Shown here in pieces: positions 2,834 through 37,495 of a DNA stretch of 64,000 bases. The DNA is taken from assembly GCA_027315115.1 (NCBI GenBank), contig DAHUYQ010000065.1, forward strand, positions 1 through 64,000. Reading direction: 5' to 3'. Below the pieces are notes generated by a model that saw only the letters and a program-made list of their open reading frames with translations, made no database searches and was not told the DNA's origin. Source of the stretch: Solirubrobacterales bacterium. GTDB lineage: Bacteria; Actinomycetota; Thermoleophilia; Solirubrobacterales; Solirubrobacteraceae. How positions within the stretch are numbered: the stretch's first letter is position 1; each line of letters opens with the position of its first letter. A program made the position numbers and the translations under genes.

Positions 2834-2857
2834 GCGACGGCCGGGGAACGCCCCACC

Positions 2858-3682: not shown

Positions 3683-3767
3683 GCTGCAGCGGATCGACGC
3701 TCGCACGAATGGCGAGCCCCCGAGGCCTCGCGCTCGTGCGCCGCACAGGCTGGCTTGTCGGTTGACG

Positions 3768-4016
3768 TTAAGGCAACTGGGCTACCACGGCAGTTGTGGA
3801 GGTAACGCGCACCGTTCCTTCACCTGCCGCAGCATATTTGACTACTCGCGCAATGCCCACCCTATGACGTCCTGCCGTGATACCAGTCAACACCTGCACC
3901 GGCACCTGTGTTGATTCGCCCGCCCCAAGCGTCACGGCGGCGGCATTGGCGGTCTTCAGCCGACCGTCTACCACGGGGTACACCGTAACCGTTCCGGCAG
4001 GGCCGCGACTGGCGAC
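3768..4016 (-). pseudogene. C-terminal fragment of an unidentified beta-rich protein
   Basis: The stretch 3683-4071 carries no intact gene. On the minus strand a frame opens just after a stop at 4019 and runs about 82 codons to a stop at 3768. It contains GPAGTVTVYPVV and ends VRVTSTTAVVAQLP, and reads like the end of a secreted beta-sandwich protein. A GTG at 3983 could start a 71-residue product, but conserved-looking sequence continues upstream of it, so I favour a remnant. It is locally less GC-rich than its surroundings. Family not recognised. Confidence 0.35.
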
Positions 4017-4071
4017 TCACCAGGTCGAGCAGGACCTCATCCTCTCGCGGCTAATGGTCGAGAGATCGTCC

Positions 4072-5280: not shown

Positions 5281-5370
5281 GTGCGAAGCATAGCTTATTC
5301 AAAATCTGGGCTGGAAACTTTAATAACGGGCCGCTCCCGGGGGTCCGATCGAAAGCTGGCTTTCATAGCG

Positions 5371-12951: not shown

Positions 12952-13113
12952 GCTCTACTGCTTGCCCGTGGCCGAGTTGACCATTTGCCGACCCCGCGTG
13001 CGTGGCGCGCCGGTGGGAGCGCACGCCGCCCCGCGAGCGACGCGGCCCGTGCCGCATGGGCCCTGAGCGGGATTTGTCGCGGGCACGCTCGTTACCCTAA
13101 CGGAGATACACAC

Positions 13114-13135
13114 GGCGGATAGGCTACCATCCGCC
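13114..13135. promoter_or_regulatory. Inverted repeat in divergent promoter region
   Basis: Perfect 7-bp arms GGCGGAT and ATCCGCC separated by eight bases. They lie between the divergent GT-C operon (start 12951) and the glycosyltransferase pair (start 13189), close to where a shared regulator would bind. A leader hairpin for the plus-strand transcript is the alternative. Confidence 0.4.
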
Positions 13136-13188
13136 AGACCGGCGATGTTGTGCTGGCCGCGCCAGACGCCGATGCACACGTGACCGGA

Positions 13189-14265: not shown

Positions 14266-14272
14266 GAGCTCG

Positions 14273-15514: not shown

Positions 15515-15574
15515 GCACTCCCGCCAAGCAACCAGCCCCGGGCGCTGCCGCGCTTGTCCTTACGATCGGCCCGG

Positions 15575-17215: not shown

Positions 17216-17418
17216 AGATCCAGAACCCGGGTCGATCCTACTAGCGATGGGGCCTCGTATGAGCGCGCCGCTCCAAATCACGCTTGTATCATGGGCTCGC
17301 GACATCGGTAGCTTCGAGACCTGACCACGCTGGCGATTCGCGGCGCGATCCAACCACTCGCCATCGGCGACATGTCCAGGTTGGCCGCGAGATCTCCAGC
17401 ATCCAGCGAGGGACATCG

Positions 17419-18689: not shown

Positions 18690-18737
18690 ATCCCTGAACC
18701 GACTAGAGACGGCGGTCAGAACCTTCTCTCAGGTCGG
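18690..18737. terminator. Possible bidirectional terminator hairpin
   Basis: Between two convergent genes, CCGAC-T-AGAG and CTCT-CAG-GTCGG can pair across a loop of about 16 bases, running into the end of the minus-strand hydrolase gene. Weak, no U-tract. Confidence 0.3.
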
Positions 18738-19676
18738 CTCCTTCAGGCCGCGGGCACGCTGGAGCACGAGCTGCACGAGCTGCTCTTGGACCGCCACATC
18801 CTCCAGCCCGTGTACCGGGCCCTCGAGAATGGTCCATGCCAGGCGGCCCTGGCCGCGCCGACGAAGCAACGCGATCGCACGCGAGGCATCTGCGTCTGCC
18901 GCCACTTGTGCCAGGTTGCGATCCGCCGTCCCGTACACGACCTCAATGTCGGTTTCGCTGGTGATGAGACGAGCTAGCTCATCCTCCATCAACAGCCCCC
19001 GCAAGGTGCCGGCATCGCCGCCGGGCGCCGCACCAGACGTCGGCAGAGAACGCCCCATGAGCCGCTGGAGCTTCACACTCACGCGAGTACGGACGATCGA
19101 GACCAGGCGCGCGAAGAACCAGCGCCTGTAATCGCCGTTGGTGCCGACCAGGCGCACGGTGGGGAGATTGATGACCTCGCCGATACGCTCGCGCACAGAC
19201 CCGATGCGGCTCCGGCCTGGAAGCACGAGCGGCGGGCTGAACAGAATCAAACCGGCTACGTCTCCCCTGCCGGCGGCCGCGGCGATGCTGGGGATCGCGC
19301 CGAAGCAACTTCCGACGATCAGGAGCGCTTGGCAGCCGGCCGCCCGCAGCGCGTTCATCGCCGCCACCACGTCGCTGACCGGCTGCCCGGTCACTCCCAG
19401 GACGAGATCGCCCGAGCTCTCCCCTGTCCCGGCGAAGTCGAATCTCAGCGACGGGATGCCTTCTTGCGCCAGCCGCCGCGAGATGCTCGTCCAGACGCCG
19501 TTGCGGTGCGCCGAGAAGTTGTTCGCCCCGCTGTGCGCCAGCACGACGCCGACGCTCGACGCGGGCGTTGTGGGAGCCGGCGCGGTGTGGAGTGCAAAAA
19601 CGGTCTCGGACCCCGAGTCGAGGTACATGGCGCATCCCAGGTGACTCTCGGACGCCCGCCCACCCTCAGAGCTCAT
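18729..19676 (-). CDS. Alpha/beta hydrolase with Cys at the nucleophile elbow
   Basis: 315 residues from an ATG at 19676 that overlaps the stop of the preceding hydrolase (ATGA). Fold markers: VVLAHSGANNF, LRFDFAGTGESSGD, and the elbow GSCFGA (Cys124), with HGLEDVAV giving the late His. Cys in place of Ser points to acyl transfer rather than plain hydrolysis and recalls hydrolase 1 of exosortase-A polysaccharide loci. It is the last gene of the ACP/acyl-AMP-ligase operon, so an acyl-carrier thioester is the likely substrate. Its partner is the Gly-elbow homologue just upstream; the two are fused in the protein at 33.5-35.3 kb. Confidence 0.82.
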   Translation of the reverse strand: MSSEGGRASESHLGCAMYLDSGSETVFALHTAPAPTTPASSVGVVLAHSGANNFSAHRNGVWTSISRRLAQEGIPSLRFDFAGTGESSGDLVLGVTGQPVSDVVAAMNALRAAGCQALLIVGSCFGAIPSIAAAAGRGDVAGLILFSPPLVLPGRSRIGSVRERIGEVINLPTVRLVGTNGDYRRWFFARLVSIVRTRVSVKLQRLMGRSLPTSGAAPGGDAGTLRGLLMEDELARLITSETDIEVVYGTADRNLAQVAADADASRAIALLRRRGQGRLAWTILEGPVHGLEDVAVQEQLVQLVLQRARGLKEPT

Positions 19677-20692
19677 TCGTCGGTCCTCCACGCTCCCACC
19701 AGCCACTCGCGGACGCTGCTCATGAGTTGCTCCTCCGTGGCCAAGATCGAGGCCGCGATCTCAGCTCCGTCCGGAATGAACCAGGGGTCCTCGGCAAGTT
19801 TCACGGGCTCCAGGCGAACGTCAGAGCCTCCGTTCTTCCAGTCCGCGACAAGTTGCTCCAGACCGGTCGCACGACTGCCGCGAAACGGCTGGACGAGGAT
19901 AGGGCGCGGCTGCCGGGGGACCGTCTGGGCCAGGTGAGACCCGCGGACAGACTCGTAGAGGCTGGCGGTGACCGTGAATCCCATCACGTCGACCTGTCCC
20001 TCATGGGCCAGTGTGGCAAGCAGATCCTCGGTGGGGGCGGGCCGCGATCCACCGATCCGAGTCGCGGCCGCCAGGCGAGCGCGGAAGAAGTCCTTGAAGA
20101 ACTTCGTGCCGTCGAGCACCGGCTTCCACAGCACGAGCGGCGCATCCGGATAATCGAACAGGGCTTGCGCGGCGATCAGCGACCCCATCCCGACACCGAG
20201 AAACGCGACACGACGCAGTGATCCCGCGTGTGCGACGGCGCGGGTAACGTCGAGCACGTCACGGCTGAAGGCATGCAGCGAAGTGGATCCTGCACCGCTG
20301 TTGCCGACGCCCCGGTAGTGGAAGCGAGCGACGGCGACTCCCGCGGACGCGAGCACGCGGGCGAGGCGGACCTCGCGCCGGTAGTCGGTGTGCTGCTCGG
20401 CGAACAGGGAGCCACACACCGTCAGCAAGCCCGACGGCGCACGGTCCACGGGACGGTGCAGCACGACGAACAAGGCCCCCTCGGGGCGCGCCAGGAAGCC
20501 CGCGTCCTCTCGCACCGTGCCGACAACTGTACGAGCTACATTGACCAGGCCGGTGCCCTGGTCGGCTCCTGGTCCGCCGGCCTCCTGTCCTGGGCCAGCG
20601 CACGGCTGCAGGGCGGCGCCCGCCTGCGAATGAACGCCCGGCCTCACCTGTCGATGCTTCCAGCCGTCGCGATCCACTCGTGCACGGTGCAC
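19673..20692 (-). CDS. Alpha/beta hydrolase-like protein with degenerate Gly elbow
   Basis: 339 residues from a GTG at 20692 (another GTG at 20677); both lie inside the upstream ligase gene, and the first 55 residues look unconserved. Fold markers: LLTVCGSLFAEQHTDYRRE, VARFHYRGVGNSG and the elbow LGVGMGSL, where Gly replaces the nucleophile. This probably abolishes hydrolysis, making it a binding or scaffolding subunit for the Cys-elbow hydrolase encoded immediately after. The arrangement resembles hydrolase 2 of exosortase-A loci, which as I recall also lacks the usual nucleophile. Residues such as EDPWFIPDG fit a lid domain. Confidence 0.75.
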   Translation of the reverse strand: MHRARVDRDGWKHRQVRPGVHSQAGAALQPCAGPGQEAGGPGADQGTGLVNVARTVVGTVREDAGFLARPEGALFVVLHRPVDRAPSGLLTVCGSLFAEQHTDYRREVRLARVLASAGVAVARFHYRGVGNSGAGSTSLHAFSRDVLDVTRAVAHAGSLRRVAFLGVGMGSLIAAQALFDYPDAPLVLWKPVLDGTKFFKDFFRARLAAATRIGGSRPAPTEDLLATLAHEGQVDVMGFTVTASLYESVRGSHLAQTVPRQPRPILVQPFRGSRATGLEQLVADWKNGGSDVRLEPVKLAEDPWFIPDGAEIAASILATEEQLMSSVREWLVGAWRTDE

Positions 20693-22356
20693 AACCCTCC
20701 CTTCCGGAAGGCTTCGGCAGCCGCGGAGCGCCTCAGCTTCCCGGACGTCGTCTTGGGCACCGATGATCGCTCGACCAACACGACCGCGTCAACGCTGATG
20801 CCGTGCTGCTCGCTGACGGAGCGGCGAATCTTCTCAACGATCCGCTCCGGCTCGCCGGGCCTGTCGTCCACGATCTCCTGGATCAGGACCACCAGGTCCC
20901 CCGCATCGGCAGGCACAGACACCGCCACGCCACACCCGGGACGCAGACTCGGATCGGCCGCCTGCATCGTCTGCTCGACGTCGTGGGGGTAGTGATTACG
21001 TCCACGGACGATCAGCACGTCCTTCAGCCGGCCGGTCACATATACAGATCCCTGCCAGAGCGCGCCCAGGTCGCCGGTACGCAGAACGCCCTCAGGGAAG
21101 ACCTCCGCGCTCAGATCCGTATCTCCCCAGTATCCGTCACACACGTGGGGTCCGCTGACCCGGATCTCGCCAACGACGCGGTCCTCGACCGGCTCACCGG
21201 TCGCTGGATCACAGACGGTCACGGTCGTCCCCGGACTTGGAGGCCCGCAGGAGACGAGCGGCCGGCCGATCTCAGGATCCACCGGCACGAGCCGGCCCTG
21301 AGAGAGCTGGTCGGAATCGACCCACAACGTCGACCCAGGCCCGCGCGAGCGAGCGCTCACGAGCAGCGTCGCCTCGGCGAGCCCGTACCCGGGCCAAAGA
21401 GTGCTCGGCCGCAGACCGCACTCCGCGAACTTGCGCGCGAACTCCGCCAGCGTGCGCTCCTTCACCGGCTCCGCGCCGTTGACCGCCACCGTCCAGCTCC
21501 GCAAGTCGATGCCGTCGAGATCAGCGACGCGCCGTATGCACAGCTCGTATGCGAAGTTCGGTGCTGCGGACCATGTCCCCCGAAACGCGGTGATCGCCCT
21601 CAGCCATCGATCGGGGCGACGCAGAAACGCCCAGGGGGCCATCTGAACCGTCCTGCATCCGATCGCCAGCGGCATCAGGATCGTCGCGATGAGGCCCATG
21701 TCGTGAAACGGCGGCAACCAGCTACACATGATCGCTTCTTCAGTCAGGCCGAAGACATCGACCATCATCCCGATGTTCGATGCCAGAGAGGCCTGGGTCA
21801 CCCGGACGCCACGGGGGGCGGATGTCGAGCCTGACGTGTATTGAAGAAAGGCCAGGTCATGGGGGCCAACGTCGACCGGCGCGTAAGCATCGGGCGAGAT
21901 GGAGGCCGTGTCGGTGAACGCCCACGACAGCTCCGGATGCGTCTCCTTGAGAAAGTCCAGGGCGGGAGCCAGGACAGACGTGGTCACCGCCGCCGTCGCC
22001 TCGGCATCATCGACAACGATGTGGAACCGCTCATGGCCCTTGGCGCCCATGAGCGAGCTCGGCGGATAGCAGGGCACGGCGACCGCGCCCGCGTAGGCGG
22101 CCCCCAGAAAGCCGGCGACCATGTGGCGCCCCGGATCCTGCAGAAGCATCACCCGGTCGCCACACCGCACGCCCTTTGCCTGCAGGTCGGCCGCGACGAT
22201 CCGTGCCTCGCGATCCAGCTCGGCGCACGAAAGCGTTTCGGCGCCCTGCACCTCACCGCCCTCCAGGAAGGTGAACACCGGCCTATCTCCACCCGCTGCA
22301 AGCGTCCGCTGCACCGCGCCGAGGAAGGTCTGCGCCGTGGCGATCGAAGCGGTCAT
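20644..22356 (-). CDS. Fatty-acyl-AMP ligase (FAAL-type adenylating enzyme)
   Basis: 570 residues, full length for the ANL superfamily. Core motifs: LQYTSGSTSAPRGVRVT (phosphate loop), WLPPFHDMGL (FAAL hallmark), GYGLAEATLLV, and TGRLKDVLIVRGRNHYPHDVE, with a C-terminal Lys in PKTTSGKLRR. FAALs activate fatty acids as adenylates and load them onto an acyl carrier protein rather than CoA. The ACP encoded two genes upstream (23.5 kb) is the expected partner. Its ATG overlaps the esterase stop codon (ATGA), so the products are made together. Confidence 0.93.
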   Translation of the reverse strand: MTASIATAQTFLGAVQRTLAAGGDRPVFTFLEGGEVQGAETLSCAELDREARIVAADLQAKGVRCGDRVMLLQDPGRHMVAGFLGAAYAGAVAVPCYPPSSLMGAKGHERFHIVVDDAEATAAVTTSVLAPALDFLKETHPELSWAFTDTASISPDAYAPVDVGPHDLAFLQYTSGSTSAPRGVRVTQASLASNIGMMVDVFGLTEEAIMCSWLPPFHDMGLIATILMPLAIGCRTVQMAPWAFLRRPDRWLRAITAFRGTWSAAPNFAYELCIRRVADLDGIDLRSWTVAVNGAEPVKERTLAEFARKFAECGLRPSTLWPGYGLAEATLLVSARSRGPGSTLWVDSDQLSQGRLVPVDPEIGRPLVSCGPPSPGTTVTVCDPATGEPVEDRVVGEIRVSGPHVCDGYWGDTDLSAEVFPEGVLRTGDLGALWQGSVYVTGRLKDVLIVRGRNHYPHDVEQTMQAADPSLRPGCGVAVSVPADAGDLVVLIQEIVDDRPGEPERIVEKIRRSVSEQHGISVDAVVLVERSSVPKTTSGKLRRSAAAEAFRKGGLCTVHEWIATAGSIDR

Positions 22357-23453
22357 CTCGATGCTGTGGCGTGCCGATCGCCGTCTCGCCGCCGTCTGCG
22401 CACGGCGAGAAGAACCAGAGCAAGGCTCCCGGCCACGATGAGCGCACAGCAGATCACGAGCAGCGTGATGCCCCCTGAGGGCGCGGACGGATCCGCGCCA
22501 GTCTGGACGCGGAGCGTCGAGACCCCAAGTCGTTTGCGCAGGAATTTGAGGATGGCCGGGCTCACCTGGGACACGTAGCCGGCTGCGTGCGCCGTGCCCG
22601 CAATGCTCACGACCTTCACGGGCGCTCCGGAGCCCCGCAACGCATTTGCCATGTCCGTAGGCTGGCTGCTGGGAATCAGCTCATCGGTCGAGTTGAACAG
22701 CAGGAAAGCCGGAGCCCGCGCGGTCACGTGGCTGCTGGGCGACGCTTCGCTGATCAGCCGCGAGGAGCACTTTCCGGTCGGACACCCAAGAAAGCGAAAC
22801 AGGGTGCCGAAGGCGCCCAGCGGGGGCATGTGCGGCATCTGCGGACAGAACGATCGATAGCCGCAAGCAGCGAGTCGTGCGCGAAGAAGCTGATCCAAAG
22901 CCGGCAGATCGAGCGGTGCCGACAGCGTGGCCACGGCGTCCACCCTCGGTGCATGCTGCTGCTCGTTGTCGAGCAGCGAAGCCATCGCTCCGAGATAGCC
23001 GCCGGCAGAGAAGCCGAGTATCCCGACCCGGCGTGGATCGCCCTCGACCTTGCGTGCGCGGGCTACGTTCCACTGGATCGCGCGCTGGATCTCCTTCACC
23101 TGTTCGGGGTACCCGGGACTGGTCAGGGAGTAGTTGAGGTTGATGGTGACGAACCCGGCCGCCGCGAGCGCGGCGGCGTATGCCGCGGTGCCCTGCTTGT
23201 CACCGCTGGTGAAGCCGCCGCCGTGGATCACGAACACCAGCGGGGCCGGCTTGGTCCGCTTCTTCGGCGAATAGACGTCCTCCGTGAGAGGCTGCCCGCC
23301 GTTCGACCGGCCGTAGACCAGGTTCTGTTGCACCTGCACCGGCTGCGACGCCGTGCCCGGCGTGGGCCCGCAACCAGCGAGACCGACGCAGAGAACGCTC
23401 AGCAGTCCAGTCGCTACCGCGGTTCGGAGGGAAAGCCTTCTCAAGACGATCAC
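22353..23453 (-). CDS. Membrane-anchored alpha/beta-hydrolase esterase (lipoprotein)
   Basis: 366 residues. The N-terminus has Arg residues, a hydrophobic run and a lipobox LAGC (Cys28). The catalytic domain shows HGGG (77-80, oxyanion hole) and GFSAGG (Ser149), with STDELIPS and GTAHAAGY for Asp and His: the acetyl-esterase BD-FAE/HSL type. A second membrane helix (GGITLLVICCALIVAGSLAL) lies near the C-terminus, with a basic tail. It probably removes acyl groups from the polysaccharide at the outer face of the membrane, balancing the FAAL/ACP pathway encoded in the same operon. Confidence 0.88.
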   Translation of the reverse strand: MIVLRRLSLRTAVATGLLSVLCVGLAGCGPTPGTASQPVQVQQNLVYGRSNGGQPLTEDVYSPKKRTKPAPLVFVIHGGGFTSGDKQGTAAYAAALAAAGFVTINLNYSLTSPGYPEQVKEIQRAIQWNVARARKVEGDPRRVGILGFSAGGYLGAMASLLDNEQQHAPRVDAVATLSAPLDLPALDQLLRARLAACGYRSFCPQMPHMPPLGAFGTLFRFLGCPTGKCSSRLISEASPSSHVTARAPAFLLFNSTDELIPSSQPTDMANALRGSGAPVKVVSIAGTAHAAGYVSQVSPAILKFLRKRLGVSTLRVQTGADPSAPSGGITLLVICCALIVAGSLALVLLAVRRRRRDGDRHATASR

Positions 23454-23764
23454 GAACGGCTGTGCGGTTGGCCTGTCTGGTCACTCGCCGCGTGCGTGGC
23501 GAGAGCGGCTTTGGCGCGGAGGAGCGCGACGAGGTCGGCGACCGTGGCGAAGTTCTCGGCCACGATCTCGTTGTCCTCGATCTGCACGCCGAAGTCGTCT
23601 TCCACGAAAGTTGCCAACTCAAGTAGGGCGGCCGAGTCGATCGCCTCGGTCAGCCGCACCGGATCGCTGCCGACCAGGTCTGCCACTGCTCCGCCGTAGT
23701 TCAGCTCGGAGACGATGAAGTTGGCGATGCGAAGTGCGGCTTCGTCTGACGAGTCAGTCAGCAT
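23450..23764 (-). CDS. Acyl carrier protein (first of two)
   Basis: 104 residues from the ATG at 23764, which overlaps the end of the methyltransferase gene by 11 bases; the stop overlaps the esterase start (ATGA). IDSAALLEL has the serine (Ser44) that would carry 4'-phosphopantetheine, followed by the helix VEDDFGVQIEDNEI. A Gln/His/Ser tail follows the domain. In this operon it is the obvious acceptor for the fatty acyl group activated by the FAAL. No phosphopantetheinyl transferase is encoded in the window. Confidence 0.88.
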   Translation of the reverse strand: MLTDSSDEAALRIANFIVSELNYGGAVADLVGSDPVRLTEAIDSAALLELATFVEDDFGVQIEDNEIVAENFATVADLVALLRAKAALATHAASDQTGQPHSRS

Positions 23765-24506
23765 GTCGAGCTGCCTCGCTCCACTCGGGCTTGACGAGCA
23801 CGAACTGCCAGGACCACGGAAAGACGCGCATGATCGGCGCCGCGGCGCGGGCGAGCGGGCGGACACGGGTGGGGATCGCCTCGGGCGGATAGTTGAACGA
23901 CCGACGCAGGCGCAACTGGAAGCCTGCGGCGATGGCGTGGCGCTGCAGATGACGCATCGTGACGACGAAGAAGTCGTGCTCCCAGGGCACCCGACTTAGT
24001 CCCCAGTAGCGTCGCTGCAATCCGATCGGCAGATAGCCCATGAACGGCAGCCGACTGTGGGACTCGATGGGAAAGTACGGGTTGGGAATCTGGCCGACGA
24101 GCACTCCCCCCGGCTTCAGCGCCCGCCAGATCTCGTCAAACGACTTTTGGCGGGCCTCCGGAAGGATGTGCTCGAAGACGTTCGCCAGAAGGACCGCGTC
24201 GAAGTACGCGTCCGGGTACGGGATGTCGTCCGCCTTGCCTGGGCCGATCTGGGCGCCCTTCTCGGTGAACGAGGTCTCCTCGAGGATCGGGTCGATTCCT
24301 GTCCACGTCAGGCCCGTTTCGGCCGTGATCTGGTCGATGAGGCCACCTCGCTGGCATCCGACGTCGAGACCTCGACCACCCGGCTCCGGCAGGTTGGCTC
24401 GGAGCAGATCCGCCAAGCTGCCGGCGAGCGCGCGGCCACGTACCGCCCACTCCTCTCGGGACTGCAGCAGCCCGGTACCCGCCAAAGGATCGTCTTGTCT
24501 GGCCAT
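23754..24506 (-). CDS. Class I SAM-dependent methyltransferase
   Basis: 250 residues from the ATG at 24506; in-frame sequence upstream overlaps the regulatory region and is unconserved. LDVGCQRGGLID is the SAM-binding motif I; FDAVLLANVFEHILPEARQK and ALKPGGVLVGQIPNPYF give motifs II/III. This is the methyltransferase-11 type found in glycan loci, which often methylates sugars or lipid-linked intermediates. First gene of the six-gene acyl-transfer operon, so it may act on the same acyl or sugar intermediate. Cytoplasmic. Confidence 0.85.
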   Translation of the reverse strand: MARQDDPLAGTGLLQSREEWAVRGRALAGSLADLLRANLPEPGGRGLDVGCQRGGLIDQITAETGLTWTGIDPILEETSFTEKGAQIGPGKADDIPYPDAYFDAVLLANVFEHILPEARQKSFDEIWRALKPGGVLVGQIPNPYFPIESHSRLPFMGYLPIGLQRRYWGLSRVPWEHDFFVVTMRHLQRHAIAAGFQLRLRRSFNYPPEAIPTRVRPLARAAAPIMRVFPWSWQFVLVKPEWSEAARHAD

Positions 24507-27390: not shown

Positions 27391-27654
27391 ATGAGCGACG
27401 CGACAGTCATCGAGCAGATCCGCAACGTCATCGCAGAGCACGCCCGGCTGCCGGGCGAGGCCGCCGACCTGCCCGCCGGGGCGAGCCTGTACGAGGCCGG
27501 CATGACCTCGCATGCCAGCGTAAGCGTGATGCTCGCGCTCGAGGACGCGTTCGACGTCGAGTTTCCCGATCGGATGCTCACGCGCGAGGTCTTCGAAAGC
27601 ATCGACGCGATCGCCGCCGCGCTCTCCGAGCTGGCGGTGGGCAGCAGCGCATGA
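27391..27654 (+). CDS. Carrier protein for aminoacyl loading (ACP-like)
   Basis: 87 residues. Carrier-protein fold with EAGMTSHASVSVMLALEDAF: the phosphopantetheine Ser is Ser40, but the usual Asp before it is Thr. As I recall, carrier proteins partnered with amino acid:[carrier protein] ligases share this Asp-less motif. Its stop overlaps the start of the dehydrogenase gene (ATGA). It is the natural partner of the aaRS-like ligase encoded two genes downstream, distinct from the fatty-acyl ACP at 23.5 kb. Confidence 0.88.
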   Translation: MSDATVIEQIRNVIAEHARLPGEAADLPAGASLYEAGMTSHASVSVMLALEDAFDVEFPDRMLTREVFESIDAIAAALSELAVGSSA

Positions 27655-28826
27655 GCGCCGTCTCGGCCACCGACACCGACTTCCTGACCACGGTCCGCGA
27701 CATCGCCGAGCGGGTCGCTGCGCCAAACGCCGACATGGTCGACAGGGAGGCCCGCTTCCCGGTCGAGACGGTGCAGGCGCTGCGTGAGGCTCGCGCGCTC
27801 TCGGCGCTCGTGCCGGTGGAGCTCGGCGGCGATGGCGTGCCTTTCGAGACGGTCGCCGCCGCCTGCTTCGAGCTCGGGCGCCGCTGCGGCGCGAGCGCGA
27901 TGGTCTTCGCGATGCACCAGATCCAGGTCGCCTGCATCGTGCGCCACGTGGGCGGAGAGCCGTGGCTCGCGGACTACCTGCGCCGCGTGGCCAACGAGCA
28001 GCGGCTGATCGCCTCGGTCACCTCGGAGGTCGGCACCGGCGGGGACATGGGGCGCTCGATCGCGGCGCTCACCGAGGCGGGCGAGGGCCGCCTGAGCTTT
28101 GAGAAGCAGGCGCCGACGGTCAGCTACGGCGCGCATGCCGACGACCTGCTGGTCACGTTGCGTCGCGGCCCCGAGGCGGAGCCCGGCGACCAGGTGCTGG
28201 TCCTGGCCCAGCGCGACCAGACCACGCTGCGGCAGAACGGCACCTGGGACCCACTCGGCATGCGCGGAACCTGCTCGCCCGGCTACCTGGTCTCCGCCAC
28301 GCTGCCCGCCGAGCAGGCGCTTTCCACGCCGTTCCCGCGCATCGCCGCCGAGACGATGGTGCCGGTCTCTCACATCCTCTGGTCTCACCTGTGGCTGGGC
28401 ATCGCCACCGATGCCTTCGATCGCGCTCGCGAGTTCGTGCGAGCCGCCGCCAAGCGCAATCCGGGCGAGCCGCCGCCGGCGGCGCTGCGGCTCTCGCAGC
28501 TTCTCAGCGAGCTCGGGCTGCTGCGCGCGGAGGTGCGCGCCGGGCTGACCGACTTTCTGGAGATGTCGGCGGAGCCGGGCCGCCCCCGGCTCTCGACGAT
28601 GACCGCCGCCGTGCGCTTCAACAGCCTGAAGATCGCCGCCTCCGAGCAGGCGCCCCGGATCTGCCAGGCGGCGCTCGGCGTCTGCGGCATCGTGGGCTTC
28701 AAGAACGACACTCCCTTCAGCGTCGGGCGCCACCTGCGCGACACGATGTCCGCGTCTCTGATGATCGCCAACGAGCGCATCCATCAGACCAACGCTGGCC
28801 TGCTGCTGATCGCCAAGGAGGTCTGA
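27651..28826 (+). CDS. Acyl-CoA dehydrogenase-like flavoprotein
   Basis: 391 residues, the normal length for the acyl-CoA dehydrogenase family, which uses FAD to form a double bond next to a thioester. N-terminal helical domain with LVPVELGGDGVPFE, beta domain with ASVTSEVGTGGDMG, and C-terminal helices with ICQAALGVCGIVG and MIANERIHQTNAGLL, where a Glu may be the base. Sandwiched between a carrier protein (4-bp overlap) and the aaRS-like ligase (2-bp gap), it is likely to act on aminoacyl-carrier protein, not acyl-CoA. Chemistry inferred. Confidence 0.85.
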   Translation: MSAVSATDTDFLTTVRDIAERVAAPNADMVDREARFPVETVQALREARALSALVPVELGGDGVPFETVAAACFELGRRCGASAMVFAMHQIQVACIVRHVGGEPWLADYLRRVANEQRLIASVTSEVGTGGDMGRSIAALTEAGEGRLSFEKQAPTVSYGAHADDLLVTLRRGPEAEPGDQVLVLAQRDQTTLRQNGTWDPLGMRGTCSPGYLVSATLPAEQALSTPFPRIAAETMVPVSHILWSHLWLGIATDAFDRAREFVRAAAKRNPGEPPPAALRLSQLLSELGLLRAEVRAGLTDFLEMSAEPGRPRLSTMTAAVRFNSLKIAASEQAPRICQAALGVCGIVGFKNDTPFSVGRHLRDTMSASLMIANERIHQTNAGLLLIAKEV

Positions 28827-28828
28827 GG

Positions 28829-29776
28829 ATGGCCGAGCTCCAGGCCGGCACGCCGGAGGAGAGCGCCTTCCTGGCAGAGCTAATCGACGCCAGAATGCTG
28901 ATCGGCAGCGGGGTGCCGGGCCTTCTCGGTCGCGGTGAGCGCTTCGAGCGGATCAGGGCGGCCGTCGACGCTCTGATCACCCGCGCCGGCGCCGACGAGG
29001 AGCCCGAGCGGATGGCCTTTCCACCCCTGATCCCGCGCCGGCAGCTTGAGCAGATCGGCTATCTCAAGTCCTTCCCCCACCTCGCAGGCAGCGTGTTCTC
29101 CTTCGAAGGCGACGAAGCGGCCGCAGCCGAGCAGGAGCGCAAGGCGAGCCTGCACCAGGATTGGAGCGAGCACCAGTCGCAGACCGATCTAGTGCTCACG
29201 CCCGCCGCCTGCTACCCGGTCTACCCGGCGATCGCGGCACGCGGGCCGCTGCCGCCGGAGGGAGTGGTGGTCGACGCGGGCGGCGCCTACGTCTTCCGGC
29301 ACGAGCCGTCCGGCGACCCGGCGCGACTGCAGATGTTCCATCAGCGCGAGATGGTTCGCATCGGCGCCCCGGAGGCGGTGCTCGATTGGCGCGCACGGTG
29401 GCGCGACCGGGCGGTGGAGCTGCTGCGCTCGATCGGCCTGGATGCCCGCTTCGATGTCGCCAACGATCCCTTCTTCGGCCGCAGCGGTCGGATGCTGGCG
29501 CGCAGCCAGCGCGCGCAGGAGCTGAAGTTCGAGGTGCTGGTGCCGATCGCGAGCCCGCAGCCGACCGCCGTTGCGTCCTTCAACTACCACCAGGAGCACT
29601 TCGCCGAGGTGCACGGCCTCACGATCGCCGCGTCCGACGGCCAGCCCGCGAGCGCGGCCCACACGGCCTGTCTGGGGTTCGGCCTGGAGCGGATCTCGCT
29701 GGCGCTGCTGCGCGCGCACGGGCTGGAGCTCGACCGCTGGCCGGCGGAGGTCCGCGAGCGGCTGGAGCTCACGTGA
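28829..29776 (+). CDS. Amino acid:[carrier protein] ligase (class II aaRS-like)
   Basis: 315 residues, start fixed by GAGG before the ATG at 28829. It is the catalytic core of a class II aminoacyl-tRNA synthetase without a tRNA-binding domain, as in Bradyrhizobium Bll0957-type ligases, which load Gly or Ala on carrier proteins. Motif 2: FHQREMVRIG; motif 3: GFGLERIS (Arg288). Cys128, Glu174 and Cys281 occupy the positions of the known zinc ligands, so substrate binding through zinc is probably kept. Neighbours on both sides overlap or abut, forming carrier protein, dehydrogenase, ligase, DUF1839 and GH2 in one unit. Confidence 0.92.
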   Translation: MAELQAGTPEESAFLAELIDARMLIGSGVPGLLGRGERFERIRAAVDALITRAGADEEPERMAFPPLIPRRQLEQIGYLKSFPHLAGSVFSFEGDEAAAAEQERKASLHQDWSEHQSQTDLVLTPAACYPVYPAIAARGPLPPEGVVVDAGGAYVFRHEPSGDPARLQMFHQREMVRIGAPEAVLDWRARWRDRAVELLRSIGLDARFDVANDPFFGRSGRMLARSQRAQELKFEVLVPIASPQPTAVASFNYHQEHFAEVHGLTIAASDGQPASAAHTACLGFGLERISLALLRAHGLELDRWPAEVRERLELT

Positions 29777-30768
29777 GCGCGGCGACCGGCGCCGGTGCGG
29801 GTGCGGGTGCGAGTGCGCGCAGCCTGCTGGGGCTCGACCCGGGCAGCTACGTCTCGCACACGCTGCACGCCAGCACGCGCGCCTACCCGGAAACGAACTG
29901 CTACACCGACATCCTGATCGAGCTAGTGCACGCGCTCGGCCACGAGCCGCTGGCGATGATGGGCTGTGCGCTGCCGATCGACTTCGAGGGCGACCAGTGG
30001 ACGTTCTTCAAGCCGCTGGACCGAGACGTCGAGCTGCTTTACGGCATCGACATCCACGAGATGCAGCCCTACCGCCCGCTGCCGCAGCAGATCGAGCAGC
30101 AGCTCGCGGCGGGGCGCACGATCACGGTCGAGCTCGACTCGTGGCACCTGCCCGACACCGCCGCCACCAGCTATCGCAACGCGCACGTCAAGAGCTCGAT
30201 CGTGCCCGAGGCAATCGATCCAGAGCGAGAAACGTTGCGCTACTTCCACGGCACCGGCTATTTCGAGCTGAGCGGCGATGACTACCGGGGCGTCTTCCGG
30301 CTCGGCGAGCACGCCTCCGAGGCCGCCCTGCCTCCCTACACCGAGCTCGTGCGGCTCGACGCCCGCAAGGCGTTGGAGGGAGCGGATCTGCGCGAAGCCT
30401 CGGTGGAGCTGCTGAGAGGACATCTGGCCAGGCGCCCGAGCACCAACCCTTTCAGGCGCTTCGGGGAGCAGCTCTCCGCCGAGCTGCCGCGCCTGCTGGA
30501 GGGCGACCAGGCCGCCTACCACGACTACGCCTTCGCGACCGTGCGGATGGTGGGCTCGGCCTTCGAGGCGGGCGCCTCGCACGTGCAGTGGCTGCTGGGA
30601 GACGACGCCGCGCAGGCGGCGGCGCAGATGAGCGCCATCGTCGCGGGCAGCAAGGCGCTCTCCTTCAAGCTCGCCAGGCGCCGCGCCTTCGACCCGGAGC
30701 CCGCGCTGGCAGAGCTGGCCCAGGCGTGGGAGCGGGCGTTCGGCGCCCTGGACGATGTCCTGCGCTGA
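29773..30768 (+). CDS. DUF1839 family protein, possible BtrH-like acyltransferase
   Basis: 331 residues; the GTG at 29773 overlaps the ligase stop (GTGA). The family has unknown function. Visible are ETNCYTDILIELVHALG (Cys43 at a helix start), DFEGDQWTFFK, ELDSWHLPDT (Asp122) and RNAHVKSSIV (His138). By eye this order of Cys, Asp and His resembles the N-terminal domain of BtrH, which moves an aminoacyl chain from a carrier protein to an aminoglycoside in butirosin synthesis. I infer transfer of the carrier-bound amino acid to a sugar. The C-terminal half is helical. Confidence 0.82.
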   Translation: MSAATGAGAGAGASARSLLGLDPGSYVSHTLHASTRAYPETNCYTDILIELVHALGHEPLAMMGCALPIDFEGDQWTFFKPLDRDVELLYGIDIHEMQPYRPLPQQIEQQLAAGRTITVELDSWHLPDTAATSYRNAHVKSSIVPEAIDPERETLRYFHGTGYFELSGDDYRGVFRLGEHASEAALPPYTELVRLDARKALEGADLREASVELLRGHLARRPSTNPFRRFGEQLSAELPRLLEGDQAAYHDYAFATVRMVGSAFEAGASHVQWLLGDDAAQAAAQMSAIVAGSKALSFKLARRRAFDPEPALAELAQAWERAFGALDDVLR

Positions 30769-33400
30769 GAGCGCGCCGCGGCGCGGTGTCACCGCGGGGG
30801 AGCGCGGCACCACCGCGCGTCCGCGGCTGAGCACGGAGGAGACGATCGCGCTCGATCGGGGCTGGCAGGCGGCCCGCTGCGCGCCCGACTCCCACACCGA
30901 TCCCGCGCGGCTGGACGATCTCGACTGGCTGCCCGCGCGAGTGCCGGGCACTGTCGCAGCGGCGCTGCGCGACGCCGGGCTCTGGCGGGCGGGCCAGCCG
31001 AGCGACCTCGACGCCGAGGACTGGTGGTTTCGCACCCGCTTCACCGCGACGCCGGCCGCCGAGAACGAAGAGCTCACCCTGCAGCTGGACGGCATCGCCA
31101 CGGTCTTCGAGGTGTTCCTCAACGGCGCCAGGCTACTCGCCGGCGAGAGCATGTTTGAGCCGCACAGCGCGCATGTCGCCGAATTGCTTAAGGAGGAGGA
31201 GAACGAGATCGCGATCCGCTGCTGTGCGCTCGCGCCGCTGCTTGCTCAAAGCCGCAAGCCACGAGCCCGATGGCGCCAGCGCCTCGTCGACGGCAACCTG
31301 CGCTTCTTTCGCGCGATGCTGCTCGGCCGTGCGCCCGGGTTCGCGCCCGGTCCGGCCGCCGTGGGGCCATGGCGGCCGATTCGCCTGGTGCGAGCGCACA
31401 CGGTGAGCATCGAGCAGGTGCGACTGCGCACGGCGCTCGCGGGCGACGACGGCCTGCTGGAGGCAAGTCTGCTCGCGCGGACGCTCGACGGGGCCGAGGT
31501 CCAGCGCGCCGAGCTCGAGCTCTCCGGCCCGTCGGGCACGCACAGCGCACCGCTGCGGCTGAGTCGGCACGCAGACGGTCGCACCCTCGCGGAGGGTGGC
31601 CTGCGCGTTGGCGCCGTCACCCGCTGGTGGCCGCACACCCACGGCGAGCCCGCCCTGCACGAGGTACGCCTGAGGATCCAGACCGCCACGGGCGAGGCGA
31701 TCGCGGATGCCGGGCGCGTGGGCTTTCGCACGCTGAGCGCAGGCGCCACGCCCGAGCACGACGTGCTGGTGGACGGCCTGGCCCTGCATGTCAACGGCGT
31801 GCGCACCTTCGCGCGCGGCGCGGTCTGGACCCCGGCCGACCCGGTCGGCCTGGCCCCCGACCCGGCGGATCTGCGCGCGCGCCTGCAACGCGCAAGGGAC
31901 GCCGGCATGAACATGCTGCGGATCCCCGGCACCGCCCACTACGAGAGCCCCCTGTTCCACGACCTCTGCGACGAGCTGGGGCTACTGGTCTGGCAGGACT
32001 TCATGTTCGCCAACCTCGACTACCCGATCGCCGACGAGGACTTCAAGGCGACGGTGGAAGCGGAGGCCCGCACTCAGCTTGCGCAGCTCGCGGGACGCCC
32101 GAGCCTGGCGGTGCTGTGCGGCAACAGCGAGATCGAGCAGCAGGTAGCGATGCTCGGCCTCGATCCCGCGCTTGGACGGGGCGAGCTGTTCGGGGAGATC
32201 CTGCCGCGGCTGGTCGCGGAGGCGCAAAGCGACGCGATTTACGTGCCCTCAGCGCCATGCGGCGGCATGCTGCCCTTCCGCCCGGGCGAAGGCATCGCGA
32301 ACTACTACGGGGTCGGCGGCTACCGCCGGCCGATCGAGGACGCCCGCCGCGCAGAAGTGCGGTTCGCCGCCGAGTGCCTCGCGTTCTCCAATGTGCCTGA
32401 TGAGGCGGGCGTGCGAGCCGTCCTGCCGGAGGGTCCGAGCGCGATCGTCGTCCACCACCCCGCGTGGAAGGCGGGCGTGCCGAAGGACGCGGGCACGGAC
32501 TGGGATTTCGAGGACGTCAGGGACCACTATCTGAAGCTGACCTTCAACGTAGACCCTCACGAGCTGCGCAGAGTCGACCCCGAGCGCTACCTCGAGCTGT
32601 CTCGAGCGGTGACCGGCGAGGTGATGGCGGAGACCTTCGGCGAGTGGCGCCGCGAACGCTCGCCGTGCGGTGGCGCGCTCGTGCTGTGGCTCGCGGATCT
32701 CGCGCCCGGTGCCGGCTGGGGCGTGCTCGATCACCGCGGCCTGCCCAAGCTTTGCTACCACCATCTCCGTCGCGCGCTGGCGCCTGTGGCCGTATGGACG
32801 ACCGACGAGGGACTCGGTGGTGTGCGCATCCACGTCGCCAACGACCGTCGTGAGCCGCTCGCGGCGCGGCTGCGGGTCGCCTTCTACCGCGACCTGGAGC
32901 AGAGGGTGGGCGAAGGCCGCGAGGAGCTCACGCTCGACCCCCGCTCGATCTGCGAACGCGACGCCGAGGCCATGCTCGGCCACTTCGTCGACGCGAGCTG
33001 GGCTTACCGATTCGGTCCCAGCGCACACGACGCGATCGCCGTGACGCTCGAACGTGACGATCCCAACGTCGACCTGCCGCAGGTGCTCTCTCAAGCGTTC
33101 CGCTTTCCAGCAGGGCGTCCTCTGCGCCGCGAGCCGGCGCAGAGCCTCGGCTTGGACGGCACGCTCATGCCTGTCGGTGAAGGCTTCTACGAGCTCACGC
33201 TCACGAGCAGACGCCTCGCATATGGAGTGAGAATCCATGCCGACGAGTTGCACCCCTCTGACGACGCGCTCACGCTTGAGCCGGGCGTTCCACGTGTCTT
33301 GACGCTTCGGGGAGAACGCAACGCGACGCATCAGACTGACCCTGACATCGCGCTTACCGCCATCAACCTCGAAGGGCAGGTGAGGGTGTCCACCGAGTAG
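30755..33400 (+). CDS. Glycoside hydrolase family 2 protein (beta-mannosidase-like)
   Basis: 881 residues. Jelly-roll N-terminal domain (DLDAEDWWFRTRF, LQLDGIATVFEVFLNG), Ig-like middle, TIM barrel with MNMLRIPGTAHYESPLFHD, VLCGNSEIEQQ (acid/base Glu459) and FAAECLAFSN (nucleophile candidate Glu540), then C-terminal beta domains. No signal peptide, unlike the other glycosidases here, so it acts in the cytoplasm, which is odd for a glycan-degrading enzyme. The ATG lies 14 bases inside the DUF1839 gene. It may edit a lipid-linked intermediate or release a modified sugar. Confidence 0.88.
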   Translation: MSCAESAPRRGVTAGERGTTARPRLSTEETIALDRGWQAARCAPDSHTDPARLDDLDWLPARVPGTVAAALRDAGLWRAGQPSDLDAEDWWFRTRFTATPAAENEELTLQLDGIATVFEVFLNGARLLAGESMFEPHSAHVAELLKEEENEIAIRCCALAPLLAQSRKPRARWRQRLVDGNLRFFRAMLLGRAPGFAPGPAAVGPWRPIRLVRAHTVSIEQVRLRTALAGDDGLLEASLLARTLDGAEVQRAELELSGPSGTHSAPLRLSRHADGRTLAEGGLRVGAVTRWWPHTHGEPALHEVRLRIQTATGEAIADAGRVGFRTLSAGATPEHDVLVDGLALHVNGVRTFARGAVWTPADPVGLAPDPADLRARLQRARDAGMNMLRIPGTAHYESPLFHDLCDELGLLVWQDFMFANLDYPIADEDFKATVEAEARTQLAQLAGRPSLAVLCGNSEIEQQVAMLGLDPALGRGELFGEILPRLVAEAQSDAIYVPSAPCGGMLPFRPGEGIANYYGVGGYRRPIEDARRAEVRFAAECLAFSNVPDEAGVRAVLPEGPSAIVVHHPAWKAGVPKDAGTDWDFEDVRDHYLKLTFNVDPHELRRVDPERYLELSRAVTGEVMAETFGEWRRERSPCGGALVLWLADLAPGAGWGVLDHRGLPKLCYHHLRRALAPVAVWTTDEGLGGVRIHVANDRREPLAARLRVAFYRDLEQRVGEGREELTLDPRSICERDAEAMLGHFVDASWAYRFGPSAHDAIAVTLERDDPNVDLPQVLSQAFRFPAGRPLRREPAQSLGLDGTLMPVGEGFYELTLTSRRLAYGVRIHADELHPSDDALTLEPGVPRVLTLRGERNATHQTDPDIALTAINLEGQVRVSTE

Positions 33401-35298: not shown

Positions 35299-36431
35299 AG
35301 CGCCCTCGCCTCCGCCGCTTTCGCGATCGCGGTGGCCATCTCGCGCTGGAAGCGCGCACGCCCAAAGGAGGCGGCGTGCCTGCGCGCACATTCCGGATCC
35401 AGGCTCATCGACTCGAAACGCTCGATCGCGGCCGCGAGGGCGCTCGGGCTCTGCTCGGAGAACAGTGCGCCTGTCACGCCGTCGATGACCGTCTCCTCGG
35501 CGCCGCCGGTCCCGTACGCGATCACCGGCACGCCTGCCGCCTGCGCCTCGATCGGCACGATGCCGAAATCCTCCTCCCCAGGGAACAGAAGCGCGCGCGC
35601 CGACGAGAGCAACTCGTCTCGCTGCATCATGGACACCTTGCCGAGCAGCTCGACATCGGCTCGATCGCCTGTAAGGGCGCGAATCGCGGACATCGCCCTA
35701 CCGTCGCCGGCCACCTTCAGCCTGCGCCCGATCAACCGGCAGCCATTCACCGCCAGATCAACCCTCTTGTAAGGAACGACGCGTCCGAACACGAGATAGG
35801 CATCGTCTGGACGTCTTGGCAGCTTGAGCAGCGGCTCCACATCCACGGGCGGATGCACGACCTCGGCCTCGCGCCCATAGAAGCGCGCGATCCGGTCTGC
35901 GACATGCTTGGAGTTGGCGACAAAGGCGTCTGGACACGAGGCGCCCTTCAGATCCTGGCGGCGCAGATACCAGGTCAATGCGGGAAGACCCAGCCTCACC
36001 AACGGTCCGAGCTCCTCTTCGGCGAGGAAGGCCGGCTCCCATGCGTATCGCATCGGCGTGTGGCAATAGCAGACGTGGAGCGCATCCTTCGACATGCGCA
36101 CGTTCTTCGCGCTGGCGTGGTTGCTGGAGAGCACGAGGTCGAAGCGCGAGAGGTCAAAGGAGCGATACGCACGGCTCATCAGTGGCAGCAGCCGTCGGTA
36201 ATGACCCACCGCCCCCGGGATCCGGTTCAGAAAGGAGGCGTGCACGGGCCGATCAGTGATCTGCGGCGGCCACGGACCCGGGTCATACACCGAGGTGAAC
36301 AGCTCGGCGTGGGGGAACATGTCGAGCAGCTCGAGGACCACCTGCTCGGATCCACCGGGGATCGTCAGCCACTCGTGGACGACTGCGACCCGCGGGAAGC
36401 GGCGCCTGAGATCCTCCAACGTCGCGTTCAC
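35295..36431 (-). CDS. Glycosyltransferase family 4 (mannosyltransferase-like)
   Basis: 378 residues from a GTG at 36431 that overlaps the deacetylase stop (GTGA). VAVVHEWLTIPGGSEQVVLEL, CYCHTPMRYAWE, YLVFGRVVPYKRVDLAV and EDFGIVPIEAQAAGVPV are typical of GT4 enzymes close to WbaZ-type mannosyltransferases. The track of longer upstream sequence has no homology-like features. Cytoplasmic; donor inferred as GDP-mannose only by resemblance. Confidence 0.9.
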   Translation of the reverse strand: MNATLEDLRRRFPRVAVVHEWLTIPGGSEQVVLELLDMFPHAELFTSVYDPGPWPPQITDRPVHASFLNRIPGAVGHYRRLLPLMSRAYRSFDLSRFDLVLSSNHASAKNVRMSKDALHVCYCHTPMRYAWEPAFLAEEELGPLVRLGLPALTWYLRRQDLKGASCPDAFVANSKHVADRIARFYGREAEVVHPPVDVEPLLKLPRRPDDAYLVFGRVVPYKRVDLAVNGCRLIGRRLKVAGDGRAMSAIRALTGDRADVELLGKVSMMQRDELLSSARALLFPGEEDFGIVPIEAQAAGVPVIAYGTGGAEETVIDGVTGALFSEQSPSALAAAIERFESMSLDPECARRHAASFGRARFQREMATAIAKAAEARAL

Positions 36432-37495
36432 GATCCGGCCCGCGCTTTGGCATCCGCGGAGGCAGCGCCACCGACCTTCGCGCTGCGCCGAACCGCCTCC
36501 GAGAAGTGATCCCACGAAGCCGTGTACGGCGCGATCAGATCCGCAAGGCGCCCGAGAGATCTGAAGGAGTCGCGCTGCTCCCACTCCCAATGCAGCGTGA
36601 GCGGCAGCCACAAGCCCGTTTGACGCTCGATCGCCTCGGCAGCGGCAGGCAGAATCTCCGACGCGCGACCGTAGAACGGTGGATAGGAGGGCAAGTAGAC
36701 GCAGCGGCCCCACCATTGCGGCGTGCTGTGCAGCCCAAGCCTGCCGACCGACTCCGGCCCGCCGCAGACGACCTCGAAGCGCTGCGCGAGCAACGGAAGC
36801 TGCCCTGCGTCGAACCGGTTGTATGGCGCGACGAACACCCGCGGCTCGATGCCGAGCAACTCGAGCTCGGACAGCGACTCATCCAGCAGCCGGCATGTGT
36901 CCGAGGCGTCCAGTCCGCAGAGCTCGGAATGTCGCCTCGGCGAAGCGAAGCGCGTCCTGTGGTCGCGACCGTGAAGCGCGAGCGCGACACCCTCGTCGGC
37001 CAACATGCGCAGCGTCGCTTGCTCATCGGAGGTGAGCGGACGTGACCGCTGGCCACGTGGATCGAGCGGGTCGAAGCTCACGAACGGCAGCACGGCGACC
37101 AGATACGGCACGCCTGCATCCCTCATCAGCTCATGAAAACGCCGATACGCTCGTACACCGTACTCCCCTTCCGCATCGAACGCGAGATAGTTGGGGAACT
37201 CGTCCACCCGGACGAGGAACCGCGGTGGAGCCGGCGCGGCATCTCCAAGCGCCGCACGCCGCGCGGTCAGCAGCGGACGCTCGATCGAACGCGACCAGTC
37301 GAGCGCTCCAAGCCGAAGCAGCGCACGCTGGAGCCTGCGCACCCGTGGGCGCGGAGCTCGTGCGTCCCGCAGCTCGGCGGCCATCCTCGTGATTCGGGGA
37401 TCGGCATCGTCGCCCGCCGCGCCGCCGATCTCGCCATCGAGCAGCAGGTGCGCCGTTCGGCGGCGCTCCTCAGCTCCGGCGCCGCGTCTTGGCAT
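36428..37495 (-). CDS. DUF2334-like polysaccharide deacetylase
   Basis: 355 residues. FLVRVDEFPNYLAFD and ALHGRDHRTRF carry the Asp and His residues of the NodB-like metal site used by DUF2334 deacetylases. PYNRFDAGQLPLLAQRFEV and HSTPQWWGRCVYLPSYPPF form the second half of the barrel. It probably removes N- or O-acetyl groups from a sugar, complementing the LbH acetyltransferase encoded just upstream (26-bp overlap). No signal peptide, so action is on a nucleotide- or lipid-linked intermediate. Confidence 0.82.
   Translation of the reverse strand: MPRRGAGAEERRRTAHLLLDGEIGGAAGDDADPRITRMAAELRDARAPRPRVRRLQRALLRLGALDWSRSIERPLLTARRAALGDAAPAPPRFLVRVDEFPNYLAFDAEGEYGVRAYRRFHELMRDAGVPYLVAVLPFVSFDPLDPRGQRSRPLTSDEQATLRMLADEGVALALHGRDHRTRFASPRRHSELCGLDASDTCRLLDESLSELELLGIEPRVFVAPYNRFDAGQLPLLAQRFEVVCGGPESVGRLGLHSTPQWWGRCVYLPSYPPFYGRASEILPAAAEAIERQTGLWLPLTLHWEWEQRDSFRSLGRLADLIAPYTASWDHFSEAVRRSAKVGGAASADAKARAGS

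Follow-up and report, generated by a model that had tools for sequence, protein, structure and literature searches.

Ligases that resemble class II aminoacyl-tRNA synthetases (aaRSs) and charge carrier proteins with amino acids were reportedly described by Mocibob et al. in 2010 and 2013. The loading of carriers with amino acids by this family is established biochemistry, glycine, alanine and serine being the amino acids given for the characterised relatives, and a 2022 review still called the role of the charged carriers and the destination of their amino acid unknown (PMC9437257). Here we analysed such a ligase gene within a stretch of 64,000 nucleotides from a Solirubrobacterales bacterium (contig DAHUYQ010000065.1, positions 1 to 64,000; hereafter the window), where it lies in an operon with genes for a carrier protein (CP), an acyl-CoA-dehydrogenase-like flavoprotein (ACAD), a protein of the family DUF1839 and an enzyme of the family GH2. 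Our analysis showed that these genes and a convergent gene for a tandem alpha/beta-hydrolase form a conserved cassette, for which carrier-protein-based aminoacylation is the best explanation; we give that explanation about an even chance of being right.

The same neighbourhood was described, and the same reaction predicted, in a note in proof by Iyer et al. in 2010; there the conserved open reading frame Atu2574 would be an amide-forming ligase, and a redox enzyme would modify the aminoacyl group (PMC2922099). A 2023 survey of papain-like proteins places DUF1839 among them and suggests that it might process glycans (PMC10318531). An initial annotation of the window had called the operon an undescribed system, a claim that these two papers overtake. 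According to a review, CcbD and LmbD work by a Cys-His-Glu ping-pong mechanism that links proline on a carrier to a thiooctose through an amide with the amino group of the sugar; in CcbD, the CP-tethered proline is loaded on the cysteine and then attacked by the amino group of the amino sugar (PMC12945683). For the system described here, we found no experimental test of the transfer step in the open-access literature, a search outside which most subscription papers lie.

A conserved cassette of six genes

A pattern scan of named genomes yielded at least 571 relatives, the best 80 of which were taken as loci, so that close relatives are over-represented. In these loci, genes were called as stop-to-stop frames with hidden Markov model profiles derived from the proteins of the window and related sequences, rather than taken from annotation. 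The best 80 loci came from eight phyla: Actinomycetota (29), Pseudomonadota (28), Planctomycetota (7), Acidobacteriota (5), Myxococcota (4), Verrucomicrobiota (3), Gemmatimonadota (2) and Chloroflexota (1), with one locus unplaced. Where the flank sufficed, 68 of 78 loci had a ligase gene ending no more than 2.2 kb upstream of DUF1839, the ACAD and CP genes lay upstream in 69/72 and 66/68, and the GH2 gene followed immediately downstream in 67/73. The hydrolase was found anywhere in the locus in 46 of the 57 loci with enough downstream flank, and 29 of 51 loci had all six genes in cassette order along a single strand. Among the 56 scan loci that hold it, the hydrolase gene lay downstream on the same strand in 43, upstream in 9 and on the other strand, as in the window, in 4. 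Plasmid records of Azospirillum, Caballeronia and Mycetohabitans have five or six consecutive cassette genes annotated; a conjugative plasmid of Rhizobium binae has four of them (CP, ACAD, ligase and DUF1839). The neighbourhood survey that the initial annotation had proposed was positive: the six families recur jointly, and they form a conserved cassette that includes the tandem hydrolase.

Coordinates and family searches agreed exactly with the five genes and four spacings given at first: a 4-base overlap between CP and ACAD, a 2-base gap between ACAD and ligase, a 4-base overlap between ligase and DUF1839 and a 14-base overlap between DUF1839 and GH2. The earlier extent of the cassette held for these five genes but overlooked the sixth, which we assign to it because the hydrolase recurs in related loci (Table 1). 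A scan for promoters and terminators found none.

Table 1. Cassette genes and other features of the window discussed in the text
Feature	Coordinates	Strand	Remarks
Carrier protein (CP), 87 aa	27391..27654	+	stand-alone; predicted phosphopantetheine Ser40, motif GMTS
Acyl-CoA-dehydrogenase-like flavoprotein (ACAD), 391 aa	27651..28826	+	PF02771 6.1e-15
Class II aaRS-like amino acid:[carrier protein] ligase, 315 aa	28829..29776	+	NCBIfam PRK07080
DUF1839, 331 aa	29773..30768	+	GTG start; papain-like fold (predicted); PF08893 1.5e-99
GH2 beta-mannosidase-like enzyme, 881 aa	30755..33400	+	PF22666 1.5e-17
Tandem alpha/beta-hydrolase, 638 aa	33475..35391	-	sixth cassette member; convergent with the five-gene operon
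Second, split module (whole)	18729..22356	-	
Fatty-acyl-AMP-ligase-like enzyme	20644..22356	-	split module
hydr2-like protein	19673..20692	-	split module
hydr1-like protein	18729..19706	-	split module
DUF2334 protein	36428..37495	-	

Predicted amino acid activation by two kinds of enzyme

Profile searches assigned the CP to PF00550 (6.7e-7) and, over cut-off, to NCBIfam PRK07081 (5.6e-29), and its phosphopantetheine serine was invariant in the alignment (80/80 relatives). The ligase scored over cut-off with NCBIfam PRK07080, 'amino acid--[acyl-carrier-protein] ligase' (3.8e-119), and matched amino acid:CP ligase 1 in the PDB (4h2w, 3e-76). It covers only positions 310-506 of the 518-position model of seryl-tRNA synthetase (SerRS), as expected of a class II core of SerRS type that lacks the N-terminal portion for tRNA binding. 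The C/E/C zinc ligands reported in the initial annotation are intact (C128, E159 and C281) and were invariant in the aligned relatives (82/82, 83/83 and 85/85, respectively). By homology, the ligase of the window would load the adjacent CP with an amino acid. A gene for an AcpS-type phosphopantetheinyl transferase (PPTase) was found in 29 of 94 loci, and 26 of them have it ending at most 300 bases upstream of the CP gene; none was found in the window, and one is encoded elsewhere in the same genome. In a published table for a phaR mutant of Bradyrhizobium diazoefficiens, bll0957 (ligase) and bll0958 (acyl-CoA dehydrogenase) each stand at 3.0 in the first fold-change column.

Eight loci lacked the ligase (L049, L060, L069, L072, L073, L078, L079 and L092), and no aaRS-like ligase was found anywhere in their genomes (0/8). 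L028 also lacked it, with only about 2 kb of upstream sequence in view, and is not among the eight. Seven of the eight genomes encoded a stand-alone DltA-like amino-acid adenylation protein (the search query being the L049 protein, whose own genome is counted), 56-61% identical to the query in the other six; the L069 genome gave NRPS-like (nonribosomal peptide synthetase) matches only, with no DltA-like counterpart. The DltA-like gene adjoined the cassette in L049, L060 and L072, and in L092 it lay approximately 31 kb off on the same contig, with a 51% copy approximately 21 kb off. At E<=1e-90, the protein was found in none of 16 ligase-bearing genomes (Fisher p 2e-5; 6/7 versus 0/16, p about 7e-5 by hand calculation, when the query's own genome is left out). 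These 16 controls were chosen by hand from the loci that have the ligase, the L086 genome not being included, and the same query in the ligase-less genomes served as the positive control. In a quick tree of DUF1839 with many open forks, changes between presence and absence of the ligase numbered at least 6.

The adenylation proteins of L049 and L060 scored over the NCBIfam cut-off with the amino-acid adenylation domain TIGR01733. Motif reading gave the binding-pocket code DNFF(I/L)AMVD in 7/7 proteins, including the aspartate that binds the amino group and the A10 lysine. This code, which is not known to resemble any described one, did not reveal the amino acid; the same reading applied to NRPS modules gave the familiar codes for Ser, Gly and Cys. 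The replacement of one amino-acid-activating enzyme by another, unrelated one next to the same CP, flavoprotein and DUF1839 provides good evidence for an amino acid on the carrier.

Some loci showed further arrangements. In three of the ligase-less genomes the DltA-like gene stood alone amid unrelated genes that by eye looked like housekeeping genes (L111, L112 and L113), and the adenylate-forming ligase of L073 scored 347 bits with ligase_PEP_1. In L086, the stretch 351-5314 next to the ligase cassette encodes an adenylation protein together with an acyl-CoA dehydrogenase and unfused hydr2 and hydr1 hydrolases, which brings two activation modules together. In L114 (G453:C12:60000-78900), a tandem hydrolase, a frame that by eye resembles a condensation domain, a CP and the DltA-like adenylation protein stand in a row at 12285-17442, with no DUF1839; this set may be a counterpart of the cassette of NRPS type.

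Predicted fold and active site of DUF1839

The DUF1839 protein scored 333.7 bits with PF08893, whose gathering score is 22.5. When its AlphaFold2 model (pLDDT, the predicted local distance difference test, 94.6) was compared with the PDB by Foldseek, the 19 matches at E<0.001 were exclusively AziU3/U2 (5.9e-7), CtaG (2.9e-6) or CcbD (7.7e-6). Cys43 was conserved in 94 of 95 aligned frames, the exception being the second copy in L013, and His138 and His159 in all 95; in a chosen alignment subset, all three residues were present in 79/79. Alignments A2 and A4 are such chosen subsets, and A2 excludes the L013 copy that lacks the NCY motif. Asn42 is conserved alongside Cys43, and Asp170 is nearly invariant. 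L013, on a Cupriavidus plasmid, carries two DUF1839 genes, within 20394-23869 (minus strand) and 11521-14764 (plus strand); the one inside a five-gene cassette lacks the otherwise conserved NCY motif, and the other is accompanied by the hydrolase alone.

The spacing from cysteine to histidine is 116 in DUF1839 (C43-H159), 112 in CcbD (C19-H131) and 117 in CtaG (C11-H128), in a comparison by spacing for which the CtaG residues were taken from the names of solved variants. This agreement makes His159 the likely catalytic histidine, which is compatible with the C(T/S)H triad that the 2023 classification of papain-like proteins gives for DUF1839 from modelling (PMC10318531). DUF1839 is predicted, on its modelled fold, to be a carrier-protein-dependent amide synthase.

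Proposed mechanism

In the mechanism that we propose, a PPTase would convert the CP to its holo form, and the aaRS-like ligase, or elsewhere the DltA-like adenylation enzyme, would load a small amino acid as a thioester, as homology and the enzyme swap suggest. The ACAD-like flavoprotein would then oxidise the carrier-bound aminoacyl group, via dehydrogenation or oxygen insertion, and Cys43 of DUF1839 would take the acyl group from the CP and pass it to a primary amine, most likely that of an amino sugar, so that an amide results in the manner of CcbD. Trimming, proofreading or further transfer of the product may fall to the GH2 enzyme and to the hydrolase with its Cys nucleophile. The order of events put forward in the initial annotation (activate on the carrier, oxidise, transfer to a sugar) is the best-supported reading of a conserved neighbourhood; its undescribed status did not hold, and the glycan context is enriched but not universal.

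Several observations weigh against this mechanism. Six Actinomycetota genomes matched the ligase strongly (E<1e-90), and three of them contain DUF1839; the ligase occurs without it in G292 (CP-ACAD-ligase-hydrolase), in G392 (ligase-CP-PPTase-hydrolase, adjoined by likely glycosyltransferases (GTs) judged from reading frames alone) and in G107, where NRPS genes adjoin it. In three of the seven swapped genomes (L073, L078 and L079), the DltA-like gene lies alone on another contig, and L086 has, in addition to the ligase, an adenylation protein next to its cassette, although this protein shares only 35% identity with the query and has a different code. The TM-scores of the DUF1839 model to its fold matches are just 0.5-0.6; CcbD, CtaG and AziU3 were absent from a sequence search of the DUF1839 profile against the PDB, up to E 10; and the top fold match, AziU3/U2, is not known to be an amide synthase. 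No amino-sugar aminotransferase family was found in a Pfam scan of 30 window proteins.

The proposed oxidation step

The best PDB match of the window ACAD was short-chain acyl-CoA dehydrogenase (SCAD; 2vig, 4.6e-15), in an alignment that sets NDTP on TEMP. It places Asp353 opposite the SCAD glutamate that acts as catalytic base; the glutamate itself, looked for as a mark of membership in the acyl-CoA dehydrogenases, is replaced in the window protein by an aspartate that could serve in its place. Aspartate occupied this position in 79 of the 94 rows with a residue there. We dropped the notion of an invariant Asp base: the 15 exceptions were first taken for unrelated ACADs, yet 12 of them belong to cassettes. 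Eight of these 12 have Gly (L010, L012, L013, L030, L062, L065, L089 and L094), and their chemistry may differ; the others have Asn, His, Ser or Glu.

The absence of the acid in 12 cassette ACADs suggests that it is usual, not required, and dehydrogenation is not secured. Because these exceptions proved to be cassette members, we rated higher the 2010 proposal of a flavoprotein that acts as a monooxygenase and would hydroxylate the amino acid on the carrier, instead of a dehydrogenase. DszC-type monooxygenases, the FAD-dependent oxidoreductase 3m9v and the nitrososynthase 3mxl were also matched, more weakly than dehydrogenases, and monooxygenation is what Iyer et al. predicted (PMC2922099); the SCAD match and the prevalence of aspartate at the base position argue for a dehydrogenase. 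We place the monooxygenase just short of an even chance; it concerns the oxidation step alone and is compatible with the rest of the mechanism.

Glycan context and the acceptor

The polysaccharide surroundings described at first were confirmed by a Pfam search of 30 further proteins, the sixth gene included: the window is a polysaccharide locus with many GT4 and GT2 proteins, two Wzx-like flippases, Wzy_C, Wzz and a sulfotransferase. The next genes on the minus strand encode a GT4 protein, a DUF2334 protein and a hexapeptide acyltransferase. DUF2334 is a deacetylase-like family, and the protein beside the cassette could possibly free an amine as a sugar deacetylase. Across 35 genomes, 12 PF00534 matches lay within 15 kb of DUF1839 among the 150 matches listed, against 0.94 expected (P about 1.6e-7 in a simple model with GTs assumed independent and contig ends disregarded). 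The 35 genomes are those of 36 loci with L035 left out, and the 150 matches reach down to near E 4e-31, weaker GTs being uncounted. The association of the cassette with GTs is real, and in Acidimicrobiia loci an exopolysaccharide (EPS) phosphotransferase adjoins the cassette. Judging from the neighbouring genes, the acceptor in the window would be a glycan.

The glycan acceptor of the initial annotation is supported by this enrichment but not as a universal feature: a listed strong GT lay within 15 kb in just 9 of the 35 genomes, and self-contained cassettes on plasmids of Azospirillum, Caballeronia and Rhizobium have no annotated polysaccharide-biosynthesis locus around them, in records whose annotation is incomplete. 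With 26 of 35 genomes lacking such a listed neighbour, a small-molecule acceptor has to be considered. The cassette would then make a small diffusible amino-acid-derived amide or glycoside, activated or released by the GH2 enzyme and the hydrolase, and no polymer would be modified. The co-conservation of these two enzymes fits such a product, as do the fold relatives CcbD, CtaG and AziU3, which belong to natural-product pathways; the strength of the GT enrichment where it is present and the EPS phosphotransferase of the Acidimicrobiia loci speak for a polymer. A small diffusible product appears somewhat unlikely.

The GH2 enzyme, the tandem hydrolase and the candidate transferases

The GH2 protein matched beta-mannosidase in the PDB (6byc, 9.1e-55), and its glutamates E459 and E540 were conserved in 71/75 and 73/73 relatives, respectively. 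By motif, E459 is the putative acid/base and E540 the putative nucleophile.

The tandem hydrolase (AlphaFold2 model, pLDDT 85.9) consists of a hydr2-like N-terminal half without a nucleophile and a hydr1-like C-terminal half with Cys459 as nucleophile and His616. The cysteine of the second-domain motif GxC[SA]G was invariant (59/59 relatives), and the first-domain nucleophile position held Arg in 48, Gly in 11 and His in 1 of 60 rows. The window contains a second, split module (Table 1) in which a fatty-acyl-AMP-ligase-like (FAAL-like) enzyme is accompanied by a hydr2-like protein without a nucleophile and a hydr1-like protein with a GSCFG cysteine, each matching one half of the cassette hydrolase profile; a search of the window with the cassette CP profile found no second carrier protein.

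The retention of ligase and hydrolase without DUF1839 in G292 and G392 makes the hydrolase a serious rival for the transfer step: it would move the aminoacyl group through its own cysteine, and DUF1839 would perform some other, AziU3-like step on the carrier. The invariance of that cysteine, its recurrence in the split pair beside a FAAL-like ligase in the same window and the rank of AziU3/U2 as top fold match of DUF1839 are in keeping with this assignment. Against it, DUF1839 occurred with no hydrolase in view in 11 of the 57 loci with sufficient downstream flank and was kept in the 3 of 39 loci with at least 6 kb on both sides that lack the hydrolase; moreover, the fold neighbours of the hydrolase, among the matches listed, are mostly esterases and lipases. 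Since each of these two proteins is found in places where the other is missing, either could be the transferase, and we regard transfer by the hydrolase as unlikely and favour DUF1839.

The patchy occurrence of DUF1839 (3/396 genomes of the phylum and 5/24 of the genus, the window's own included) might suggest an operon brought together by chance, or in decay, within a polysaccharide locus, but this is scarcely credible given active sites that are mostly intact across eight phyla and a conserved gene order, which rules out chance order in the surveyed loci.

Significance

The amino-acid-to-sugar idea has been in print since 2010, and its support is partly strengthened by our survey, the enzyme swap and the fold match. 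New here are the swap of the activating enzyme in ligase-less loci, the match of the DUF1839 model to AziU3/U2, CtaG and CcbD, a hydrolase with an invariant cysteine as its putative nucleophile, and the enrichment of nearby GTs, confined to 9 of 35 genomes. In the broadest reading, which we advance tentatively and consider more doubtful than the aminoacylation cassette itself, a widespread and horizontally moving module would decorate sugars with an oxidised amino acid via a CP, an aaRS-like ligase and an NRPS/DltA-type enzyme would be interchangeable in it, and DUF1839 would be the first large cell-surface, non-antibiotic branch of CcbD/CtaG-type amide synthases. The parallel split module suggests that bacteria may build several acyl decorations per polysaccharide. 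The six-gene cassette, the swap, the predicted CcbD-like fold and a defined cysteine offer concrete proteins and mutants with which to pursue the destination of the carrier-bound amino acid. If the acceptor is indeed a glycan, the cassette would provide a general route for modified amino acids onto bacterial polysaccharides, with an activating enzyme derived from translation.

Comparison with known systems

Exosortase A loci encode the hydrolases hydr1_PEP and hydr2_PEP as well as ligase_PEP_1, and the sixth cassette gene is a fusion related to both hydrolases. Membership in an exosortase system was rejected: the hydrolase scored 94.2 bits with TIGR03101 and 67.4 bits with TIGR03100, under the curated cut-offs of 202.75 and 168.45, and this genome gave no exosortase match.

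In butirosin assembly by BtrJ, BtrO and BtrH, an amino acid is loaded on an acyl carrier protein (ACP), oxidised and transferred to an aminoglycoside amine. The cassette differs in having no decarboxylase and another type of ligase. BtrH, named ACP:aminoglycoside acyltransferase in the 2023 survey (PMC10318531), was also tried as a family for the window protein, and its BtrH_N model (PF14399) was unmatched at E<=0.01, DUF1839 being the sole match. The butirosin parallel of the initial annotation is sound in kind, but the closest folds are AziU3/U2, CtaG and CcbD.

CtaG of closthioamide and AziU3/U2 of azinomycin share their fold class with the DUF1839 model; their reactions and their gene context differ from those of the cassette. 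With CcbD and LmbD, DUF1839 would share the papain-like fold, the cysteine and a carrier-bound amino acid. CcbD differs in that it acts in an antibiotic pathway on carrier-bound proline, whereas the cassette has an aaRS-like ligase and a flavoprotein, and the two proteins have no detectable sequence similarity.

The closest described system is the neighbourhood of the 2010 note in proof, which shares with the cassette the ligase, the ACP, the redox enzyme, the conserved open reading frame, a glycosidase, liposaccharide genes and the predicted reaction. Atu2574 is here presumed to be a DUF1839 protein. The tandem hydrolase, the adenylation-enzyme swap and the fold match of DUF1839 are unnamed in the note itself, and the prediction of an amino acid passed from a carrier to an amine is common to both.

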